A stretch of DNA of 23,842 bases. It comes from a virus. The notes under the pieces are model-generated. The model had not been told where the DNA came from, searched no databases, and was given only the letters and a program-made list of their open reading frames with translations. Positions 691-12,200 of this stretch are shown here, piece by piece. Location of the stretch: positions 1 to 23,842 of IMG/VR virus record IMGVR_UViG_3300010370_000243; one strand, written 5' to 3'. How positions within the stretch are numbered: the first letter of the stretch is position 1; every line of letters begins with the position of its first letter. A program made the translations under genes and the position numbers.

Positions 691-719
691 TGAGGCCTCG
701 AAAGTGTCCCTATAGTATG
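691..719 (+). promoter_or_regulatory. 29-bp repeated promoter-like element, copy 1
   Basis: TGAGGCCTC, then GAAAGTGTCCC, then TATAGT (711-716) and ATG. The palindrome GAGGCCTC ends 11 bases before the -10-like TATAGT. There is no TTGACA-like -35 at normal spacing. If TATAGT is a -10 box, transcription would start near 723, inside the gene whose ATG is 717-719. Copies 1 and 4 are identical over the first 28 bases. Confidence 0.75.
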
Positions 720-890
720 AACACAACCTTCTCCGTCCGTTTCGTCTCCGATGCTCTCGATTCTCCTGAGTACATTGGACCTTTCTACTCTGAAGATGCT
801 GCCGAAGAGTATGCTGATGATCGCAACAGTTCGTTAGCACTCTCTGGCATCCCTTCCTCTGTTGCTTGTTACTCTGTCGTCGCTGATTGA
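717..890 (+). CDS. small acidic hypothetical protein; start fused to repeat copy 1
   Basis: A 57-residue protein, MNTTFSVRFVSDALDSPEYIG... ending SVVAD. It is acidic with many Ser residues. The segment GPFYSEDAAEEYADDRNS resembles the helix of a small strand-helix-strand fold. Its ATG is the last three bases of the repeated element, directly after TATAGT, so a conventional promoter there could not place this ATG on the mRNA. Either the gene is read through from upstream, the transcript is leaderless with an unusual start site, or the element acts at another level. No internal ATG is available as an alternative. Its stop overlaps the next ATG (890). First of a three-gene unit; function unknown. 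Confidence 0.6.
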   Translation: MNTTFSVRFVSDALDSPEYIGPFYSEDAAEEYADDRNSSLALSGIPSSVACYSVVAD

Positions 891-1126
891 TGAAAACTTT
901 AACACTCCAAGTCACTGAAGTTTCGTTTGATTTTGATGATGAAGACTTCACCGTAGAAGAACAACAAGAGGTCATCAATTCTGTCGTTGGTAATGTCTTC
1001 GAGGTGGAAGTTGATGATGACGACGATGATGAAGACATTGCACATTGTTTAGTTGAAGAGGTGACAGATTACACTGGTTGGTGTGTCTTCTCTCTTGATT
1101 TTGTTCACATTCTTAACACTCACTGA
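890..1126 (+). CDS. very acidic small protein with Asp run
   Basis: A 78-residue protein (MKTLTLQVTEVSFDFDDEDF... ending FVHILNTH). It is strongly acidic: a DFDDEDF segment early, and residues 42-49 are six Asp followed by Glu-Asp. The C-terminal part (YTGWCVFSLDFVHI) is aromatic and hydrophobic. The start used is ATG 890, which overlaps the previous TGA; an in-frame TTG at 887 is less likely. Acidic small phage proteins can act as DNA mimics or bind basic host proteins, but that is a guess from composition; the Asp run could also bind metal. Second gene of the first three-gene unit. Confidence 0.65.
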   Translation: MKTLTLQVTEVSFDFDDEDFTVEEQQEVINSVVGNVFEVEVDDDDDDEDIAHCLVEEVTDYTGWCVFSLDFVHILNTH

Positions 1127-1137
1127 AACAAACTAAA

Positions 1138-1353
1138 ATGACACTTTCCAACGAACAACTTTGCTCTCTGACTGAAACTTATGCCATGATGATTGTTGAT
1201 GGCATGGACATGGATGATCTTGTTACATTTGCCGTCGAATCTCTAGTTGCAGAGTATAACAAATACACAGAGGCAGAACTTCTTTCTGAGATCGAAGAAT
1301 TGTACGATACAGAAGTATTGAATGATCTTCTCGAAAGTGTAAAAGAACTGTGA
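1138..1353 (+). CDS. conserved small acidic helical cyanophage protein
   Basis: A 71-residue protein starting MTLSNEQLCSLTETYAMMIVDG, with a MDMDDLVTFAVESL segment and a C-terminal acidic helix. It looks almost entirely helical and is rich in Glu, Asp and Leu, suggesting a helical bundle or a protein-binding adaptor. From memory, small proteins with this start and a VDGMDMD-L segment are common in T4-like cyanophages, without known function. The ATG at 1138 is 11 bases after the preceding stop. It is the third gene of its unit. Codons near its end contain CTCGAAAGTGT (1330-1340), an 11-base match to the middle of the repeated element. Confidence 0.7.
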   Translation: MTLSNEQLCSLTETYAMMIVDGMDMDDLVTFAVESLVAEYNKYTEAELLSEIEELYDTEVLNDLLESVKEL

Positions 1354-1403
1354 ATGTTTCCGAGGGTTTCCGAGTTGCGCTCGCGCCGCTAATTATTAAA
1401 CTC

Positions 1404-1432
1404 TGAGGCCGGCAAAGTGTCCCTATAGTATG
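1404..1432 (+). promoter_or_regulatory. 29-bp repeated promoter-like element, copy 2
   Basis: TGAGGCCGG, then CAAAGTGTCCC, then TATAGT (1424-1429) and ATG. This is the most diverged copy: three adjacent substitutions break the GAGGCCTC palindrome, although GGCC and the whole right half are kept. As in copy 1, the ATG of the next gene directly follows TATAGT. The 50 bases upstream hold a GTTTCCGAG direct duplication (1356-1364, 1366-1374) and a GC-rich patch. Confidence 0.7.
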
Positions 1433-1588
1433 AACACCACTCAAATGCCACAAACTCTCAATCACGATGACATTCGTGCTCTTCTTGATCTCATCGAGTT
1501 TCATGATGATTGGGACGAGTGCAGTGAACAACTTGGTGTAGATGTTGCTGCACTGTATGACAAACTCCACGATCTTTTCGCTAACTGA
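1430..1588 (+). CDS. small acidic hypothetical protein; start fused to repeat copy 2
   Basis: A 52-residue protein, MNTTQMPQTLNHDDIRALLDL... ending LHDLFAN. It looks like two amphipathic helices joined by a short EQLGVD turn, which would suit a small helix-turn-helix or adaptor, but no family is recognised. The ATG immediately follows TATAGT. A second ATG at 1445 (codon 6) lies beyond the predicted transcription start near 1436 and would make a 47-residue product, so the real start may be there. The first residues MNTT match those of the gene at 717 because both come from the same repeat-derived sequence. First gene of the second three-gene unit. Confidence 0.6.
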   Translation: MNTTQMPQTLNHDDIRALLDLIEFHDDWDECSEQLGVDVAALYDKLHDLFAN

Positions 1589-1594
1589 TAACAA

Positions 1595-1777
1595 ATGACA
1601 CATTACAATCCTTACGTTCAAAACCTGATTGAGATGGGTTATGATGAATCTGACTGCCGTATGGTTGCTGATGTCGGCAGACAGAATGTGACCTATCCGC
1701 GTAACATTCACGGTCGCACATTTGAAACAGAAAGTGAGTACAAAGAAGCACTCGCTGATTTTATCAATGGACTCTGA
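1595..1777 (+). CDS. small hypothetical protein with UBA-like MGY loop
   Basis: A 60-residue protein (MTHYNPYVQNLIEMGYDESDC... ending LADFINGL). The segment LIEMGYDESDCRMVADVG has the pattern of a UBA-type first helix and MGF/Y loop. This is a pattern resemblance only; a full three-helix domain would need more length than is clearly present. The C-terminal half has a TFETESEYKEALADF helix. The start is six bases after the previous stop. Second gene of its unit; it overlaps or nearly abuts the next gene, depending on the start chosen there. Function unknown. Confidence 0.65.
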   Translation: MTHYNPYVQNLIEMGYDESDCRMVADVGRQNVTYPRNIHGRTFETESEYKEALADFINGL

Positions 1778-1784
1778 TTTGATC

Positions 1785-1934
1785 ATGATTGAAACTCAAT
1801 TCTACATTATGACTGAAGAACAATACAATCAATTCTCCATTGATGCACAACAACTGAACGTAACTGTTGATTACTTTCTTTCTGAGTTTTGTGACGTGAT
1901 TGGAGAGATTGTGCAAGTTGCTAACAAATACTGA
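1785..1934 (+). CDS. small hypothetical protein ending inside repeat copy 3
   Basis: From ATG 1785 (seven bases after the previous stop) this encodes 49 residues starting MIETQFYIMTEEQYNQF and ending IGEIVQVANKY. An in-frame ATG at 1767 would add six residues and overlap the previous gene by 11 bases; both starts are plausible. The sequence reads strand, acidic helix, strand, helix, with no motif recognised. Its TGA stop (1932-1934) is the first three bases of the next repeated element, so element and gene end are physically joined. Third gene of the second unit. Confidence 0.65.
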   Translation: MIETQFYIMTEEQYNQFSIDAQQLNVTVDYFLSEFCDVIGEIVQVANKY

Positions 1935-1960
1935 GGCCTCGAAAGTGTCTCTATAGTGTA
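1932..1960 (+). promoter_or_regulatory. 29-bp repeated promoter-like element, copy 3
   Basis: TGAGGCCTC, then GAAAGTGTCTC, then TATAGT (1952-1957) and GTA. The palindrome is intact. The predicted start of transcription is near 1964, leaving a leader of about 15 bases before ATG 1979. The upstream stop codon is part of the element. Confidence 0.8.
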
Positions 1961-1978
1961 ACCACAACGCTTCCCACA

Positions 1979-2293
1979 ATGCGAGTCATCGAATCACAAA
2001 TGAATCAAGCAATCAACAAGCAAGTTGATTGGAAGAAAGACAACACCGAAGTTATCTCTTGCACCAACGTTACTGATGTATTTTTGTATGGTAACTTGAT
2101 TGCACGGATTGGTGAAACCTGGATCGAATTGTTCGATGGTGGGCATCAATCAAACACGACAAAATCGCGTCTTAATGCTATACTGAAAGAGCACGGTTTG
2201 CCTGGTGAGTATGTCTTTCAGAAGAAAGGTCAGTGGTTTCTTAACTATAATGGCGCTACAATTCCTTTCTTCTCAGGTATGCGCCTGAACTGA
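1979..2293 (+). CDS. conserved hypothetical cyanophage protein, 104 residues
   Basis: Starts MRVIESQMNQAINKQVDWKK and ends PFFSGMRLN. After an amphipathic N-terminal helix, the protein is beta-rich: VTDVFLYGNLIARIG and WIELFDGGHQSNTTKSRL, followed by a helix (LNAILKEHG) and strands (GEYVFQKKGQWFLNYNG). The overall basic, aromatic beta-sheet character would suit a nucleic-acid-binding fold, but this is inference. It is the largest protein of the small-gene arm. The first ATG follows repeat copy 3 by 18 bases, the expected layout for a promoter with a short leader. I believe similar proteins occur in other cyanomyoviruses, without known function. Confidence 0.75.
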   Translation: MRVIESQMNQAINKQVDWKKDNTEVISCTNVTDVFLYGNLIARIGETWIELFDGGHQSNTTKSRLNAILKEHGLPGEYVFQKKGQWFLNYNGATIPFFSGMRLN

Positions 2294-2324
2294 ACTTTTC
2301 CTTCATTTTTTACACTTTTCAATC

Positions 2325-2507
2325 ATGACTCAAGTAGAAATCAACGGTGCAATCTCTCAAGCATTTGCTAATCTTTCCATTCTAAATGAACAGGTTTATG
2401 ATTACTGGGTTTCTGAACTTTACACTCTTGATGGTAACTTTGTAGAGGGTAAGTGGAATGAAGAAACTCTCTATGAAATGGAAACTGATGTGATGCAAAA
2501 CTCCTGA
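2325..2507 (+). CDS. small acidic hypothetical protein
   Basis: A 60-residue protein, MTQVEINGAISQAFANLSILN... ending METDVMQNS. The first half is a likely amphipathic helix; the second half is aromatic and acidic (VYDYWVSELYTLDGNFVEGKWNEETLYEME). No family is recognised. The spacer before it (2294-2324) is pyrimidine-rich with no hairpin or purine-rich ribosome site. Second gene of the third unit, seven bases ahead of the small membrane protein gene. Confidence 0.65.
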   Translation: MTQVEINGAISQAFANLSILNEQVYDYWVSELYTLDGNFVEGKWNEETLYEMETDVMQNS

Positions 2508-2514
2508 ATCTATC

Positions 2515-2640
2515 ATGGATCTTATCTCTTTCGTTCTTTCAATTCCTATTCTATTGTTTGTGCTTTTGTTCTCTTTTGTGAATCCTGATCTTCCCAATGA
2601 TACACATGACTCGCCACCTTCACAAAGTAGCAAATACTGA
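2515..2640 (+). CDS. 41-residue single-span membrane peptide ending inside repeat copy 4
   Basis: MDLISFVLSIPILLFVLLFSF is one strongly hydrophobic helix covering about residues 3-22. A short polar tail (VNPDLPNDTHDSPPSQSSKY) follows. The layout fits a tiny inner-membrane peptide with a soluble C-terminal tail, the type phages use to alter host membrane proteins or lysis timing; the role is inference. The ATG is seven bases after the previous stop. Its TGA (2638-2640) is the first codon-sized piece of repeat copy 4, like the gene before copy 3. Third gene of the third unit. Confidence 0.65.
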   Translation: MDLISFVLSIPILLFVLLFSFVNPDLPNDTHDSPPSQSSKY

Positions 2641-2666
2641 GGCCTCGAAAGTGTCCCTATAGTATA
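2638..2666 (+). promoter_or_regulatory. 29-bp repeated promoter-like element, copy 4
   Basis: TGAGGCCTC, then GAAAGTGTCCC, then TATAGT (2658-2663) and ATA. It is identical to copy 1 except at the last base. The predicted start is near 2670, giving a leader of about 14 bases before ATG 2684. The upstream stop is again within the element. Confidence 0.8.
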
Positions 2667-2683
2667 ACCACCAAACTCAAATC

Positions 2684-2890
2684 ATGGTCTTTCTGATCTC
2701 TTCAAAAAACCAGTGTACCTATACTCTGGATGCCAACAATCAACGGGTTTTGATGTATGCTCCACTGTTGCCTGATGGTTCATACGAAACAGCAGGAAAT
2801 GCCTATGATTGGGTAGAATGGGATCGTCTCGATGATGATGAATTAGCAGAGGCAGATCGTTGCCACAAATTGTTACTTTCTGAGGTTTGA
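2684..2890 (+). CDS. small acidic hypothetical protein
   Basis: A 68-residue protein starting MVFLISSKNQCTYTLDANNQ and ending CHKLLLSEV. It reads as a beta hairpin (TYTLDANNQRVLMYAPLLPDG), then an acidic C-terminal helix (VEWDRLDDDELAEADRCHKLL). No motif is recognised. It follows repeat copy 4 with a 20-base gap after TATAGT, the same gap as for the genes after copies 3 (21 bases) and 5 (20 bases). First gene of the fourth three-gene unit; the next gene starts four bases after its stop. Confidence 0.7.
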   Translation: MVFLISSKNQCTYTLDANNQRVLMYAPLLPDGSYETAGNAYDWVEWDRLDDDELAEADRCHKLLLSEV

Positions 2891-2894
2891 TTTG

Positions 2895-3029
2895 ATGTTC
2901 ACAATCCGCTATTTTACTCCCTATCAACAACAGTGGAGAACTCAAACATTTCCTACATTAGATGAAGCAAATAGGATGATAGATTTCTACCGTTCTTGTG
3001 GATCTCCTGCTGAATTAGTCAATCAATGA
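2895..3029 (+). CDS. 44-residue hypothetical protein
   Basis: The product is MFTIRYFTPYQQQWRTQTFPT... ending GSPAELVNQ. It has a strand (FTIRYF), a polar Gln-rich turn and a helix (LDEANRMIDFYRSCG). The ATG is four bases after the previous stop, and its own TGA overlaps the ATG of the next gene (ATGA at 3026-3029). This spacing and the unbroken frame support a real gene despite the short length. No family recognised; function unknown. Confidence 0.65.
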   Translation: MFTIRYFTPYQQQWRTQTFPTLDEANRMIDFYRSCGSPAELVNQ

Positions 3030-3253
3030 TTACTCTTACAAGCGTTAATCTTCCGTTCATTATTAACAAGGAAAAGAGCAAAGATGAGTGTCAAGAAGGT
3101 ATGTTCTCTCTCTACTTTTACAGTCGAAAGATTATACATAACAATCGACTTCGTTATAAGTTTGAACCCCTAAGATTTGAAGGTAAGCAAGCACGATTCA
3201 AGACAAGAAAGGACGCAAAAGAATACGCACGTTACAGACTTGCACTTGATTGA
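3026..3253 (+). CDS. small basic protein closing the cassette array
   Basis: A 75-residue, strongly basic protein, MITLTSVNLPFIINKEKSKDE... ending ARYRLALD. It contains SRKIIHNNRLRYKFEPLRFEG and then KQARFKTRKDAKEYARYR, whose Lys/Arg density would suit binding of nucleic acid or an acidic protein; this is inference. It overlaps the preceding gene by four bases. A textbook terminator follows eight bases after its stop, so it ends the run of genes that began left of the window. Third gene of the fourth unit. Confidence 0.7.
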   Translation: MITLTSVNLPFIINKEKSKDECQEGMFSLYFYSRKIIHNNRLRYKFEPLRFEGKQARFKTRKDAKEYARYRLALD

Positions 3254-3261
3254 TTATACTG

Positions 3262-3289
3262 AAAAAGACCCTTTTTAGGGTCTTTTTTT
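3262..3289 (+). terminator. strong intrinsic terminator
   Basis: An 11-bp perfect stem, AAAAAGACCCT (3262-3272) with AGGGTCTTTTT (3277-3287), has a four-T loop and ends in a run of seven T (3283-3289). It lies eight bases beyond the stop of the last gene in the cassette array. The A-run on the left could also support termination from the other direction, but no convergent gene is seen. Confidence 0.92.
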
Positions 3290-3342
3290 ATGTTTTTTAA
3301 TGAATAAATGTATTAAAAAATGTAGTTGAGTGTTTTATCTTG

Positions 3343-3400
3343 TTCTCAATAAGTGTTATTTTATTGAGAATCATTAGTGGTTATTGTTGAGAATTAGTGG
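3343..3400. repeat. perfect 10-bp inverted repeat plus a related direct copy
   Basis: TTCTCAATAA (3343-3352) and TTATTGAGAA (3361-3370) are exact reverse complements around an eight-base centre. The right arm and its flank (3361-3380, ending ATTAGTGG) recur at 3384-3400 as TTGTTGAGAATTAGTGG, with one substitution and a three-base deletion. This AT-rich stretch has no gene. It could be a protein-binding site or a weak RNA hairpin; there is no T-run like that of a terminator. Confidence 0.8.
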
Positions 3401-3418
3401 TGCATTTATGGTCATTTA

Positions 3419-3510
3419 AATGTGCTCAGGTCTTGTGATTTAGACCTCTTTTAATGTGCTGAGACCTTGTGATTTAGACCTCTTTTAATGTGCTGAGACC
3501 TTGTGATCTA
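3419..3510. repeat. 34-bp tandem repeat, about 2.7 copies, with AGACCT hexamers
   Basis: Units start at 3419, 3453 and 3487. Each reads AATGTGCT, then a hexamer, then TGTGATTT, then AGACCT, then CTTTT; the third copy decays after TGTGATCT. Hexamers fall at 3428, 3442, 3462, 3476 and 3496, that is 14, 20, 14 and 20 bases apart. The first is AGGTCT, the exact reverse complement of the others, so copy 1 alone has an inverted pair (stem of six, loop of eight). Iterated short sites in a gene-free stretch suggest binding sites for a regulator or replication protein. Confidence 0.85.
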
Positions 3511-3601
3511 AGCGTGCATCATAACACGAACGCGCACAAATGTCAAGACCCCCAACGTCACAAAATCCCCACACATCGGCACTCAAAATATCAGCACTCC
3601 T

Positions 3602-3609
3602 AATAAATA
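3602..3609 (+). promoter_or_regulatory. possible T4-late-type promoter box
   Basis: AATAAATA, the same octamer found before gp25 and gp8. It lies 13 bases upstream of a host-type promoter at 3622, so the gene at 3681 could be read both early and late. A single octamer in an AT-rich stretch may be chance. Confidence 0.35.
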
Positions 3610-3615
3610 CTCCCA

Positions 3616-3650
3616 GCCCCGTTGACATTTATCGTGGGGCATTTTATACT
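3616..3650 (+). promoter_or_regulatory. host-type promoter with -35 inside a GCCCC/GGGGC dyad
   Basis: TTGACA (3622-3627), a 17-base spacer, and TATACT (3645-3650) form a near-consensus sigma-70 promoter with a predicted start near 3657. GCCCC (3616-3620) and GGGGC (3636-3640) flank the -35, with 20 bases between arm centres (about two helical turns). The dyad could be an operator or a hairpin. The promoter lies 31 bases before ATG 3681 and decides that start. Confidence 0.85.
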
Positions 3651-3680
3651 GTCTACAGTTACACCATCGGAGCAATTCTA

Positions 3681-3854
3681 ATGTCTTTAGTGTATCAGCA
3701 GGCACAGAAGCATCGTTATAGAATCACTCTGGAATTGGACGTTCTAGGTGATTTCGACCCGCATCAAATTGACTGGGAGAAACTTTTTAAGTTGGAACCA
3801 GCAGAACATTGTGATGCATATGTTGAGGACCTAAGTACACCTGACCGATGGTGA
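3681..3854 (+). CDS. conserved small acidic cyanophage protein (MSLVYQQAQKHRYRITLELD)
   Basis: From ATG 3681 this encodes 57 residues: a helix (VYQQAQKHRYR), a strand (ITLELDVLG), then FDPHQIDWEKLF and a C-terminal acidic part ending STPDRW. The frame is open back to an ATG at 3540, but the extra 47 residues (Pro/Ser/Thr-rich) would span the near-consensus promoter at 3622, which starts transcription near 3657. GGAG at 3669-3672 lies eight bases before ATG 3681. Both points favour the short form. From memory, very similar small proteins occur in other T4-like cyanophages. No catalytic motif; function unknown. Confidence 0.8.
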   Translation: MSLVYQQAQKHRYRITLELDVLGDFDPHQIDWEKLFKLEPAEHCDAYVEDLSTPDRW

Positions 3855-3867
3855 AGGTTACTAATAC

Positions 3868-3896
3868 TGAGGCCTCCAAAGTGTTCCTATAGTGTA
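3868..3896 (+). promoter_or_regulatory. 29-bp repeated promoter-like element, copy 5
   Basis: TGAGGCCTC, then CAAAGTGTTCC, then TATAGT (3888-3893) and GTA. It has two substitutions in the spacer relative to copy 1, but the palindrome and TATAGT are intact. It lies 13 bases after the preceding stop and 20 bases (after TATAGT) before ATG 3914. It is separated from the main array by a terminator and about 0.6 kb. Confidence 0.8.
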
Positions 3897-3913: not shown

Positions 3914-4162
3914 ATGAGCGTCACTTTCCAGACAAATCTGACCGACACTGAGTATAACGGTTGGACGAATTATGAGACCTGGAATGTTGCACTGTGGATC
4001 GGCAATGATGAGGGTCTTTATGACATCGCCCGTCGTTGTGATGATTATCAAGACTTCGTAGATGCAGTCGAAGGACTTATCTCTAAGACGCCCGATGGGG
4101 TATCATTTACCAGTGATAAGTTGAACTGGCACGAACTCAACGACATGATCGAAGATCTCTGA
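3914..4162 (+). CDS. conserved small protein with NGWTNYETWNVALW motif
   Basis: An 82-residue protein, MSVTFQTNLTDTEYNGWTNY... ending LNDMIEDL. The segment NGWTNYETWNVALWIGND (about residues 16-33) is a recognisable conserved motif of a small family (DUF7249-like, from memory) found in cyanophages and other viruses or plasmids; its biochemical role is not known to me. The rest is helical and acidic: LYDIARRCDDYQDFVDAVEGL, then DKLNWHELNDMIEDL. The gene has its own copy of the repeated promoter-like element and no other gene closely coupled to it, so it may be expressed alone or with the gene at 4248. Confidence 0.8.
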   Translation: MSVTFQTNLTDTEYNGWTNYETWNVALWIGNDEGLYDIARRCDDYQDFVDAVEGLISKTPDGVSFTSDKLNWHELNDMIEDL

Positions 4163-6919: not shown

Positions 6920-7321
6920 ATGCCTTTAGAGAGGGTTAGTCAAGGTTTTAAAGATATAAGTATGACTTTTCAGGCAAATCCCCTGAACAGTGATTTGATA
7001 GCAATTAATAATATTAACGCTATCAATAGATCGATTAGAAACATTGTCTTCACCCTCCCTGGGGAAAAATTTTTTAATCCCGTTTTTGGGTCAAATATAA
7101 CTGCATCTCTATTCGAAAATATTGATGATTTTTCTGCGGCGGCTATTAAAAATGAAATTGAACTTTCTATTCGTAACTTTGAACCAAGGGTTAATTTACA
7201 ATCTGTAGTGGTTACTCCCGATTATGAAGATAACACCTTTGATGTGGTCATAAATTACGAAATCATAGGTTTAGCAGTTGCTCCACAACAATTAGAGTTT
7301 GCTTTACTCTCAGCAAGATAA
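6920..7321 (+). CDS. gp25: gp25-like baseplate wedge subunit
   Basis: A 133-residue protein, almost the same length as T4 gp25 (132). It carries the gpW/gp25 family layout: an N-terminal arm, a helix NAINRSIRNIVFTLPGEK, the NPVFGSNITASLFE segment (equivalent to the GER/FGS-l---lFE signature), a helix, and the EPRVNL signature at residues 88-93 followed by beta strands. In contractile phages gp25 forms the core bundle with gp6 and gp53 and helps nucleate the sheath at the baseplate, inside the infected cell. It is the first gene of the late transcript; its TAA abuts the gp6 ATG without a gap. Confidence 0.92.
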   Translation: MPLERVSQGFKDISMTFQANPLNSDLIAINNINAINRSIRNIVFTLPGEKFFNPVFGSNITASLFENIDDFSAAAIKNEIELSIRNFEPRVNLQSVVVTPDYEDNTFDVVINYEIIGLAVAPQQLEFALLSAR

Positions 7322-9247
7322 ATGGCACTACAAAATTTCACAAGTTTAGATTTTGATCAAATTAAAAGAACTCTTAGTGATTATCTAAGAGCGAATTCAA
7401 ATTTTACTGATTATAATTTTGAGGGATCTAACTTTTCCACTATACTAGATGTTCTAGCATATAACACCTACATTGCGTCATATAATGCAAATATGATCGC
7501 AAATGAGGTTTTTATTGATAGTGCTACACTCAGAGAAAACATAGTTTCTTTAGCTAGAAACATAGGATATGTTCCAAGATCAAGAAAAGCAGCAACTGCA
7601 GTTATAAGTTTTTTTGTTGATCTAAATCAAAGTGGAGTAACTCCATCAACATTAACTCTACAGAAAGGAGTAGTTGTATCTTCTTCTTCTCAGTTTGGCG
7701 GAAATTCATTTACCTTCTCTATTTTAAATGATATAACTGTTCCTGTTGTTAATGGCGTTGCCTCATTTAATAATATCAAAGTTTATCAAGGAAATTTAAT
7801 AACAGAAACCTTTGTCAGACAGTCCATAAATCCAATTCAAAGATTTCTGCTGAGTAACGTTGGAATAGATACAGATCTTCTATCAGTTGTGGTAAGAGAC
7901 TCTTTTAATGCTGATATTAGAAGAACATATAAAAAGCAAGATAGTCTTTTTGAAATTAACGATCAGTCAAGAGTATATTTTCTACAAGAAATAGAAGATG
8001 AAAGGTACGAATTAATTTTTGGTGATGGTATTTTTGGAAAGCAATTGCAAGAAAATAACGTAATCGAAGCTTCGTATATTGTTTGTGATGGTGATCCAGC
8101 AAATGGAATTCAATCTTTTTCTTTTAGTGGTAGATTAGTCTTTGTAAGAGATGGTGTTGAAAATATTGTTTCTCAGGGAATATCTCTAGTAACAACTCAG
8201 ATTCCATCTAGAGGTGGAGAAGCAATAGAGTCTGTGGAATCTATTAAAAAATATGCTCCAAGAATTTATTCTTCTCAAAACAGAGCATTAACTATTACTG
8301 ACTATGAAACTTTAATCCCAGCAAAAATTTATCCAGAAACAGAATCTATTTCTGTTTTTGGTGGAGAAGATCTTGTTCCTCCACAGTATGGAAAAGTTTT
8401 TATTAGCATAAAACCAAAAACTGGTGATTTTCTTCCAAACTTAATCAAAGAAAACATACGTAGAGATCTAAAAAAATATGCTGTTGCTGGCATTGTACCT
8501 GAAATTTTAGATCTAAAGTATCTTTTCTTAGAAGTAGAATCTCAAGTATATTACAATACAAATTTAACTTCATCTCCTTCATATCTTTCTAGTCTTATTC
8601 AAGACAATACTCTCAGATATGCTAATTCGTCAGATCTTAATAAGTATGGCGCTAGATTTAAATATAGTAAATTTTTAAAAATAATAGATGATACTGATGA
8701 CGCCATAACATCTAATATTACAAAAATACAAATGAGGAGGGATTTGAGAGTAACTCTGAATGCTTTTGCAGAATATAAGATCGGTTTTGGGAATCAATTT
8801 TATATTGGAAATCTGTCGGGATATAATGTAAAATCTTCAGCGTTTCAAGTATCTGGAATATCTGGAGATGTTTATCTATCCGATATTCCAGATACTAACA
8901 GAAAAGATGGTTCAATTTTCTTATTCTCTGTTCCATCAGCGAACTCAACAAGTCCAACAATTATCAGGAGAAATGTTGGAAGAATAGATTATGTTAAAGG
9001 GGTTATTACTTTAAATCCGATAAACATTATTAATGCAAAAATAAAAAATGGACAACCAACTATTGAAATTTCTGCAGTCCCACAATCTAATGACGTTGTT
9101 GGATATCAGGATCTTTATTTGCAACTAGATATATCAAACAGTACATTTGAAATGATTACCGACTCAATATCTTCTGGATTAGATCCTTCTGGTTCTCAGT
9201 ATATTGTTTCATCAAGTTATAAAAATGGCAATTTAGTAAGAAAGTAA
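7322..9247 (+). CDS. gp6: gp6-like baseplate wedge subunit (baseplate J family)
   Basis: A 641-residue protein close to T4 gp6 (660). Visible family marks are an N-terminal FTSLDFDQIKRTLSDYLR and DVLAYNTYIASYNANMIANEVF block (about residues 5-68), FGDGIFGKQL (233-242), SRGGEAIES (296-304) and QNRALTITDYE (319-329), the last three being typical of baseplate J-like proteins. The C-terminal third is beta-rich and more variable. gp6 dimers link neighbouring wedges into the inner baseplate ring and clamp gp25 and gp53. It follows gp25 directly and is followed by the giant gene after one base, with no promoter seen in between, so the three are probably co-transcribed and assembled together. Confidence 0.93.
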   Translation: MALQNFTSLDFDQIKRTLSDYLRANSNFTDYNFEGSNFSTILDVLAYNTYIASYNANMIANEVFIDSATLRENIVSLARNIGYVPRSRKAATAVISFFVDLNQSGVTPSTLTLQKGVVVSSSSQFGGNSFTFSILNDITVPVVNGVASFNNIKVYQGNLITETFVRQSINPIQRFLLSNVGIDTDLLSVVVRDSFNADIRRTYKKQDSLFEINDQSRVYFLQEIEDERYELIFGDGIFGKQLQENNVIEASYIVCDGDPANGIQSFSFSGRLVFVRDGVENIVSQGISLVTTQIPSRGGEAIESVESIKKYAPRIYSSQNRALTITDYETLIPAKIYPETESISVFGGEDLVPPQYGKVFISIKPKTGDFLPNLIKENIRRDLKKYAVAGIVPEILDLKYLFLEVESQVYYNTNLTSSPSYLSSLIQDNTLRYANSSDLNKYGARFKYSKFLKIIDDTDDAITSNITKIQMRRDLRVTLNAFAEYKIGFGNQFYIGNLSGYNVKSSAFQVSGISGDVYLSDIPDTNRKDGSIFLFSVPSANSTSPTIIRRNVGRIDYVKGVITLNPINIINAKIKNGQPTIEISAVPQSNDVVGYQDLYLQLDISNSTFEMITDSISSGLDPSGSQYIVSSSYKNGNLVRK

Positions 9248-9248
9248 A

Positions 9249-12200
9249 ATGATTAGCACAAATAAAGAAGAAAGAATTAAGTTTAATACAATCATTGAAA
9301 GTCAGTTTCCTCTATACATTGAGGAAGAATACCCACTTGCTAAAGAGTTTTTTAAACAATATTATATTTCACAAGAAAATTTTGGCGGACCATTAGATAT
9401 ACTTCAAAATATTGATAAACGCATTAAGTTGGGATCAGTAACAAGAGATTTTGAAGAAAGTACCACTATTCAAAATCTTTCCATATCTGGCGTTACAACT
9501 TCCATTGGTGTTTTCGATACCACCATTTATGTTGATAGTACCTATGGATTTCCAGATTCATATGGTCTAATAAAAATAGACAATGAAATAATTACGTACA
9601 CTTCAAAAACCAATATAACTTTTGATGGTTGCATTAGAGGATTTAGTGGAATAACATCATACAGAAATCCATCTGTTCCAGAAGAATTAATTTTTTCGTC
9701 TTCAGAAGCTGCAGAACATGCAGAAAAAACTAGAGTAGAAAATTTAGGGCAATTATTATATAAATCGTTTTTTAGAAAATTAAAGCAGCAAATCGCTCCA
9801 GGATTTGAAGACAGATCTTTGTTCTCAGGAAAGAATAAAGATACTGCCGCCATTAAAGTAAACGAAGAAAACTTTATTTCAAGGTTAAAAGATTTTTATG
9901 GTTCCAGAGGAACTGATCAATCTTTTAAAATTCTTTTTAAAGCTCTTTATAACGAAGATGTTGAGATTGTTAAGCCAAGAGATTTTCTTTTCAAACCATC
10001 AGATGCGGCATATAAGATTACAAAAGATCTGATAGTAGAGTTGATTAGCGGAAATGCGGAAGAATTAACTAATTCTACTCTTTTTCAAGACCAATATGGA
10101 GATATCTCTAAAGCATATGCGCCAATAACAAAAGTAGAAAAAATAAGCACAGGTATAGCAACGGCAAATTATTATAAGTTGAGTTTAGACTCAAATTATG
10201 ATAGAGATATTATTGTAGATGGTGCTGTATATGGATCTTTTTCTGTGCATCCATATACAAAATGCATCTCAAATGTTTCTGTAGGAGCATCTTATATTGA
10301 TGTCGATTCGACAATTTCATTTCCAATAAAAGGAGAACTATCTGTAGTTTATTTTGATGGTTCTGTAGGGGTAGTATCTTACACTTCAAAAAATCTTAAT
10401 CAATTTATTGGATGTTCTAACATAGACAAATTGATTTATGATAAAACACCAATCGGAATTAATACATATGCATATGGTTATTCAAATACTGGCGATGGAT
10501 CTATAGTTAAAGTTAGAGTAACTCCTGTCTTAGAGAGTTTAAATTATGATTCTACAAGTTATTATTATAAATCTGGCGATACTATTGATATAGATTCTTT
10601 AGGAAGAGAAACAGAAAAAGAAGATCTGGCAAATAAATTTTTTATTAATGCGTGTGCAACATATGATGTTAAATCTATAACAACGATAGATTTAACTGAC
10701 AATACTGTATTAATAGAAACGGAAGATCCTCATTCTTTGGTCGTAGGCGATGAAATTGTCTTAACAGGAAACAGTGGTAACCTAAACAAATCAATTATTG
10801 TAAAAATTGATACAGAATTTTCATTTTCTGCAAAAGGACAAGGACCAGTAAGTAGTTCAATCAAATATAAGTTTACTAAACTTTTATCAAAAACTAATGC
10901 CTCTTATTTTAAATCTTCATCATACTTTAATAGCAACGTTCAAAATGTCTATAAAGATGAAGAAAGTTTATTAATTGCTTCTCCATCTATTCCAAATTAT
11001 TATAATCAACCAATTGAAACAAATGATAAGTCCATCATTTTTGGTGGAACTTTTCCTCCAGTTGGAGTGGGATCAACAAACATTTTTAATATATCTCCAA
11101 TTAAAACACATGGATTGTTTACTGGAGATGCTGTTTATTATTCTTATCCAAAAAGAGTTTTTTATAGTGCAGAAACGGGATATGATGAAGTTGAAATATT
11201 GAATGGAAGACTTGGAGAAAATTTTCCAGAGGGTTTACTTTTTATTAAGAGAATTGATGACAATAGAGTCCAATTTGCTAGAAGCAGATCTGATATTTTA
11301 AATGGGAAATTTTTAAGCGTTCCTGCGCCAGTAACTTTTTCTCAAAATAAACTTGAAGTTTATAATTTACAAGGACAAACTTTAGAATCGCAAAAATTAT
11401 TAAGACAAATAACTCCTCCACAAAATGTGGATAAAAAATACGAAACCATCCCTGGACAAACAGGTATTCTTGTTAATGGCGTAGAGATCTTAAATTATAA
11501 GTCTCCAGATTCGATTTATTATGGTCCGTTAGATGAAATTAGTGTTTCTTCTCCTGGATCAAATTATGATATAATCAATCCTCCTGTTTTGCATATATCA
11601 GATTCTATTGGAATTGGAGCTACTGGTTATGTTGCTGTTACAGGATCATTGCAAGAAATTAGAGTTATAAATTCTGGGTATAATTACGTCGATAATCCTA
11701 TAGTATCAATAACAGGTGGAAATGGATTTGGTGCAAATGCTATCGTAGCTACTAAACAAATAATTAATAAACAATCTTTTAATTCTAATCCAAATGCAGC
11801 TCTAGTTGGAGTAGGAACAACTATTTCTACTATTGGATTTACAACTTATCATAGATTTTTAAATGGAGAAAAGGTCCTTTATAAAACAAATGGATCTGCA
11901 TCTATTGGCGGTTTAGTTGCAAATGCATCATATTTTGTCAATGTTAGAGATGCATATACGGTAAAACTTCATAACACGAGTCTAGATGCTCTTGCTGGGG
12001 TTAACACTATAGCATTATTATCTTATGGATCAGGAAATCACGAATTAGAGTCAATACAAAAGAAAAAAGTTGTTGATAAAATTATTGTTACAAATCCTGG
12101 ATTTGGATATCAGAATAAAAAAAGAACAACAAATTCTTCTGGTATCAATACATCTTCAGATTCAATAACAATAAAAAATCATGGATATAAAACTGGAGAA

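Follow-up and report, generated by a model that had tools for sequence, protein, structure and literature searches.

A T4-like cyanophage fragment in IMG/VR, 23,842 bases long and called the window here, carries five copies of a short bipartite element in front of small genes. The 3' half of the element is common to many phages, while its 5' half, the module, differs between phages in step with the C-terminal region of one protein family, a very basic protein of about 200 residues that we name c6; this coupling is strongly supported. We consider it likely, at a probability slightly above 60%, that the element is an early promoter read by c6, which would be made late, packaged, injected into the next host cell and there recruit RNA polymerase.

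A bipartite element whose 5' half follows the phage

All five window copies (Table 1) match TGAGGCCnnnAAAGTGTnYCTATAGT exactly, and TATAGT begins exactly 20 nt from the first base in each. With up to three mismatches allowed, 100 dinucleotide shuffles of the window yielded no copy, and no sixth copy lies within three mismatches on either strand. The positions and fixed distance given in an initial annotation of this DNA were thus confirmed, as was its observation that the copies lie between genes and head small-gene units: each sits on the coding strand in the spacer that separates a small gene from its successor, copies 3 and 4 overlapping the preceding stop codon. Of the sequence blocks that it described as common to all copies, GAGGCC is indeed invariant, but the full GAGGCCTC palindrome is present in only four, copy 2 reading GAGGCCGGC.

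When IMG/VR was scanned for the 3' half by itself, at least 120 stretches matched, and the matches listed contained at least 252 distinct exact sites, spread over 116 cyanophage sequences. The first impression from exact BLAST searches, that the element is rare and confined to a few isolate records, was overturned, as the 3' half is widespread in IMG/VR and the 5' half variable. Many phages share the 3' half AAAGTGTnYCTATAGTRTRA, and the 12 bases preceding it are phage-specific, centring on a hexamer whose fifth base is almost invariably C. Besides the GAGGCC of the window, the hexamers include GGGGCC, GGGACG, CTCACC, GGGCCC, GGATCC, GGATCG, GTAACC, GAAGCC and others. The palindrome, likened initially to the MotA box, is not the conserved feature, since CTCACC, GGGACG, GTAACC and others occupy the same place in other phages.

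Because the scan pattern had fixed the 3' half, its conservation was measured again on sites picked by the 5' half plus AAA only. Numbered from the first A of AAAGTGT, the positions that stand out are T5, G6, T13, A14, T16, R17, T18, R19, A20 and A23. In the CTCACC and GTAACC groups the first TA of TATAGT (positions 11-12) is less well conserved, which makes TAnTRT (13-18) the steadier -10 candidate; TATAGT, initially considered as a -10 box, is not the most constant candidate across relatives, and TAnTRT lies two bases further downstream. G is rare from about position 22 onward, with C/A at positions 22/23. Position-wise logos of the element sites contained no -35 TTGACA at 17 nt, in line with the initial annotation, and no conserved promoter upstream of -45.

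High-scoring sites in S-SM2, SynMITS9220M01 and two large IMG/VR contigs all fall on one strand within a single stretch of about 10-18 kb, and the reversed controls of these four sequences had none. Almost all of these copies lie between annotated genes; the contrary pattern named in the initial annotation, copies in coding sequence or late genes, was not what the scan found. Use of the element by hosts was considered and rejected, since only 20 of 11.3 million genome contigs match, once each and none of them cyanobacterial, against about 60 expected by an estimate that assumes uniform bases.

The 5' half is far more alike within contigs (identity 0.918) than between them (0.470; shuffle 0.477, standard deviation 0.019). 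Its flanks, compared likewise, reach only 0.34 and 0.28; homogeneity falls off in the A-rich bases immediately before the module and all but disappears further out or downstream. Among 406 sites assigned to gene families, identity was 0.895 for the same phage and different genes, 0.480 for the same gene in different phages and 0.476 for neither. The 5' half belongs to the phage and not to the downstream gene. Single gene families illustrate this: 15 different hexamers precede 46 sequences of the MKNTHxEHPED family, 14 precede 23 of the Gp96 family (cluster 9) and 13 precede 27 of the DUF7249 family (cluster 14). In two contigs, the many modules of their own type are joined by one or two foreign ones: L060 has GGGACG and GGGCCC among GGGGCC, and L113 has GAAGCC at 3619 among GTTACC. 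These single modules look like recently acquired promoter-gene units.

Coupling of the c6 C-terminus with the module

A screen of the protein families common to element-bearing contigs, small early genes included, looked for divergence in step with that of the module. Only c6, whose members include SSM2_065 (S-SM2), SynMITS9220M01_053 and AIR93418.1 (P-TIM68), stood out, and it did so only through its C-terminal 60 or so residues. Their distances correlate with those of the module at a Mantel r of 0.58 (n = 42; p ≤ 0.0005, at most 1 in 2001 permutations), compared with 0.06 for the N-terminus in the same set, and the partial r of the C-terminus given the N-terminus is again 0.58. Since linkage or shared ancestry would shift both ends of the gene, the N-terminus serves as a built-in control. 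For the best 60-column window over 41 families, c6 scored 0.59, the next family 0.44 (n = 14) and the others with n of at least 20 reached 0.35.

IMG/VR contains more than 500 c6 loci. A held-out set of 80 further c6 loci, reduced to 43 non-redundant test cases, behaved in the same way. Module identity was 0.86 when read from the nearest C-terminus, 0.73 from the nearest N-terminus and 0.46 at random; in the 12 cases where C- and N-terminal neighbours disagreed, the C-terminus was right in 10 (p = 0.019). Over the combined set (n = 73) the Mantel r is 0.66 for the C-terminus and -0.04 for the N-terminus.

The reverse search led back to the element. With c6 as the query, tblastn against 50,697 phage records returned 10 matches, nearly the element-bearing set: SynMITS9220M01, S-SM2 (two), P-TIM68 (two), AG-345-O18, AG-345-E15, S-B05, RN05-S and RB11-B. 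Modules agree in three named records and one group that came to light only through c6; besides P-TIM68 these show GGGGGGTCG in AG-345-O18, CTGAAGCG in AG-345-E15 and TTACTCACC in RB11-B. For P-TIM68 and AG-345-E15, where the element was not previously known, modules like GTTAGTAACC and CTGAAGCC were read from the c6 C-terminus; the genomes, then looked up, held 13 copies of AATGTTAGTTACCTCTAAATTGA (the GTTAG[T/A/G]{1,2}ACC type) in P-TIM68 and two of CTGAAGCG in AG-345-E15. The 3' halves in these two phages differ from the usual one (AAATTGAnnnTAnTAATGTAA in P-TIM68), so their 5' half was not found by way of the 3' half. Repeats of GTTACTCACC or GTTAGTAACC also occur in four c6 loci that lack the usual 3' half. 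The boxes predicted for the c6 C-termini of S-SM2, SynMITS9220M01 and P-TIM68 are GGGGGGTCG, GTTACTCACC and GTTAGTWACC, respectively.

The C-terminal residues most informative about the hexamer are 153 and 156 (SynMITS9220M01 numbering), which lie three apart. ERD goes with CTCACC in 13 of 14 cases, ERM with GTWACC in 11 of 11 and ERK with GGG[ATG]CG in 9 of 9. The left part of the module varies in step with a second C-terminal segment, the one that follows (partial 0.59). The loci L095 (ACTTGGATCG) and L126 (GTTATGATCG) have the first segment in common, along with the right part of the box; they diverge in the second segment and likewise in the left part.

The c6 gene also looks like a late gene with a packaged product. 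In all 42 distinct upstream regions TAAATA, the core of T4-type late promoters, lies 22-42 nt before the c6 start; at the same spacing it precedes gp25, a baseplate gene known to be late, in 22 of 26 cases, and the median of 51 families is 0. Unlike c6 and gp25, the element-headed genes have no such pattern. Most of 50 aligned c6 proteins begin with MKTF.[QE]F..E, which resembles the first 10 residues of T4 IPII, MKTYQEFIAE, annotated as a removed propeptide. In T4, the first ten residues are enough for a protein to enter the head and reach the host, targeting being the role of residues 4 and 7 and processing that of 8 and 10 (PMC9026906). On these grounds c6 looks made for packaging in the virus particle. 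Like the T4 internal proteins IPI-III and Alt, early effectors that are packaged in the virion, cleaved by gp21 and injected, it has a late promoter core, a basic character and an N-terminus matching the 10-residue capsid-targeting peptide. The known T4 internal proteins inhibit restriction or modify polymerase, and we know of none that is a sequence-specific promoter factor.

A proposed early promoter and competing explanations

The above points to a model in which a large group of T4-like cyanophages would use the element as an early-type promoter. Host RNA polymerase would contact the 3' half, and the 5' half, positioned like the MotA box of T4, would be the binding site of c6, whose C-terminal 60 or so residues would read it, both differing between phages in step. 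The c6 protein would be expressed from a T4-type late promoter and packaged by its putative capsid-targeting peptide; it would then enter the next cell with the DNA and recruit RNA polymerase to the phage's own early promoters. We infer promoter activity, DNA binding, timing, packaging, injection and activation rather than repression from these sequence patterns.

The closest known arrangement is that of T4 middle promoters, which combine a MotA box with AsiA-modified sigma-70. There too a phage-specified box replaces the -35 region; in T4 it lies at about -30, 11-13 nt from the -10, and host polymerase is presumed for the element as well. The initial annotation had noted this spacing, and the 13 nt from hexamer to TATAGT recur in all exact sites. 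The element hexamers, however, differ in each phage and are unrelated to the MotA box TGCTT, and the candidate factor c6 is unrelated to MotA, apparently late-expressed, and equipped with a packaging peptide. Reviews describe T4-like cyanophages as devoid of T4 middle promoters and of motA and/or asiA (PMC5780444). Neither MotA nor AsiA had a match in the element-bearing phages tested, in a search that did find MotA in T4. The need for a different phage factor, anticipated from the sequence, is likewise indicated, with c6 as the concrete candidate. A single-subunit (T7-type) polymerase, brought to mind by TATAG before the start codon and by SP6-like letters, was also considered; six records had no PF00940 match, in a search in which the positive control also had no match.

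Several observations weigh against the model. The sequences are related and Mantel tests ignore the tree, the control being the N-terminus of the same gene, and, except for the held-out loci, the alignment and the window were chosen with the data already in view. The c6 C-terminus is predicted with one confident helix (overall pTM 0.28) and shows no known DNA-binding fold; the predicted structure had no significant match in the PDB, and a Pfam search of c6 none either. S-B43 (L176) retains three decayed elements, at 10947, 12005 and 13201, and c6 is not detectable in it, unlike in its relatives RB11-B, RN05-S and S-B05; it may have lost c6 together with most element-headed genes.

The most direct difficulty concerns the start codons. 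The triplet at element positions 17-19 depends on the gene, being ATG at 219 of 430 sites, GTA at 142, ATA at 61 and GTG at 8; in the remaining half of the sites the start codon lies 10-30 nt further downstream. Homologs indicate that the ATG right after TATAGT is the true start in several families. The MKNxHLEHPED protein, for instance, starts at the ATG abutting TATAGT, and its P-TIM68 version begins 15 nt further downstream; before the start of the Syn9 homolog, MPNKHLEHPED, there is no element. Where the true start is at 17-19, a transcript beginning at 22-26, 7 nt past TATAGT, would omit it. The transcript starts at 723 and 1436 put forward initially would in this way leave out the start codons at 717 and 1430, whose use homology supports. 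TAnTRT/TATAGT with C/A at 22/23 agrees with a sigma-70-type start 6-8 nt downstream of the -10, and start codons at position 17 disagree with it; either transcription is leaderless from 15-17, or the messages are read through, or the -10 assignment is wrong. Of the distinct promoter class suggested at the outset, a promoter-like intergenic element is supported, but the palindrome is not essential and the start positions are not supported.

Among the alternatives, the one that survives best, though we hold it improbable, is that c6 is a late-made repressor or silencer of early promoters and the 5' half an operator beside an ordinary weak host promoter. The coupling with the module and the late expression of c6 would suit a repressor as well as an activator, but no upstream -35 box is present to let the promoter work alone, the box sits at MotA-like spacing, and a repressor carried in the particle would block its own phage in the next round of infection. 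The start codons directly after TATAGT, genuine in many genes, favour a different and still less probable explanation, that the element acts in RNA, as part of a leader from an upstream start or as a signal for processing or leaderless starts, with c6, basic and largely unfolded in its predicted structure, binding RNA. Against this, the spacing to translation is not fixed, as the other half of the sites start 10-30 nt on, no conserved promoter lies upstream of -45, and the module needs no RNA fold.

Already disfavoured is a host-type sigma-70 early promoter that needs no phage factor, its 5' half homogenised within each phage by recombination between copies and drifting between phages. The resemblance of TATAGT/TAnTRT to a -10, the unit exchange seen in L060 and L113 and the precedent of T4 promoter-terminator cassettes would all suit it. 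It leaves unexplained that the module keeps step with one end of a single protein, the C-terminus, but not with its N-terminus, and that modules in new phages were predicted correctly; moreover, the flanks and the 3' half show no comparable homogenisation, and the hosts lack the element.

A novel early-gene regulatory element in Syn9 and P-TIM40 was reportedly described by Doron et al. 2016. That this is the present element is very unlikely: it too is an early-type element of T4-like cyanophages from the same family and early small-gene region, but both genomes lack c6, Syn9 has no copy and P-TIM40 none within three mismatches, and Syn9 repeats a different motif, TGTATTCTATAAGAGTCAAAG. Repeats in Syn9, S-WAM1 and S-CAM4 proved to be other motifs. 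The promoter-like TGTATTCTATAAGAGTCAAAG recurs before small genes in Syn9 (L134; 46337, 47252 and 48606) and S-WAM1 (L007; about 3145), in several cases with GTGnCAC...ATCGGTTG about 30 nt upstream, and is possibly the published early element of the Syn9/S-WAM1 lineage.

The window and the wider meaning

In the window a run of small genes on the + strand precedes the structural genes, and the relatives of this small-gene stretch are Synechococcus phages of Kyanoviridae. The contig does not include the c6 gene; we infer the c6 of its own phage from two other GAGGCC/T phages (L012 and L009). Between copies 4 and 5, at 3415-3516, a 34-nt unit, TTTTAATGTGCTGAGACCTTGTGATTTAGACCTC, is repeated three times in tandem just 3' of a terminator-like hairpin (about 3262-3290). 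Elsewhere in IMG/VR, a record of 284,050 bases (IMGVR_UViG_3300027541_000009, G001) has 14 GGATCC-type elements and apparently duplicated structural genes, such as a 4-kb-aa tail gene present twice, and is either a chimera or a jumbo relative.

Table 1. Element copies, the genes behind them and the structural genes of the window
Feature	Positions	Strand	Details
Element copy 1	691-719	+	GAGGCC 692-697; AAAGTGT 701-707; TATAGT 711-716; TAGTAT 713-718; ATG 717 directly after TATAGT
Small gene behind copy 1	717-890	+	57 aa; cluster 36; TATAGT directly followed by the start codon at 11 of the family's 12 element sites
Element copy 2	1404-1432	+	GAGGCC 1405-1410, then GGC; AAAGTGT 1414-1420; TATAGT 1424-1429; ATG 1430 directly after TATAGT
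Small gene behind copy 2	1430-1588	+	52 aa; second in-frame ATG at 1445
Element copy 3	1932-1960	+	GAGGCC 1933-1938; AAAGTGT 1942-1948; TATAGT 1952-1957; TGA of TGAGGCC (1932-1934) is the stop codon of the preceding gene
Gene behind copy 3	1979-2293	+	Kyanoviridae Gp96 family (PF23790); cluster 9
Element copy 4	2638-2666	+	GAGGCC 2639-2644; AAAGTGT 2648-2654; TATAGT 2658-2663; TGA of TGAGGCC (2638-2640) is the stop codon of the preceding gene
Gene behind copy 4	2684-2890	+	68 aa
Element copy 5	3868-3896	+	GAGGCC 3869-3874; AAAGTGT 3878-3884; TATAGT 3888-3893
Gene behind copy 5	3914-4162	+	DUF7249 (PF23907); cluster 14
gp25	6920-7321		structural (baseplate)
gp6	7322-9247		structural
gp10-like			structural
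gp8			structural

Repeated promoter-bearing spacers between small variable genes are also a feature of PeSLs, the promoter-stem-loop cassettes of T4-like phages cited in PMC4503421; the present element differs in including no stem-loop and in having a 5' half that co-varies with a protein. We know of no description of such a factor-promoter pair, its novelty being judged from the literature searched.

The broader proposal, to which we give about even odds, is that T4-like cyanophages of one lineage inject, together with their DNA, a transcription factor whose sequence specificity marks out the phage's own early promoters, and that factor and boxes have co-diversified into more than 12 specificities shared neither with co-resident phages nor with the host. 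Herpesvirus VP16 is a virion-delivered activator of immediate-early promoters. If the model holds, c6 would be the phage counterpart of such virion-borne activators of animal viruses, as in both cases a factor carried in the particle marks the virus's own earliest promoters; no homology is claimed, and here the virus is bacterial and the specificity has diversified among relatives. For the question of how T4-like cyanophages, lacking MotA and AsiA, get their programme under way, the analysis offers a named protein family, the sites predicted for it genome by genome and a candidate code linking residues to bases. If true, it would also provide dozens of natural factor-promoter pairs that may not cross-react, which could be used to study how specificity evolves and how co-infecting phages compete.

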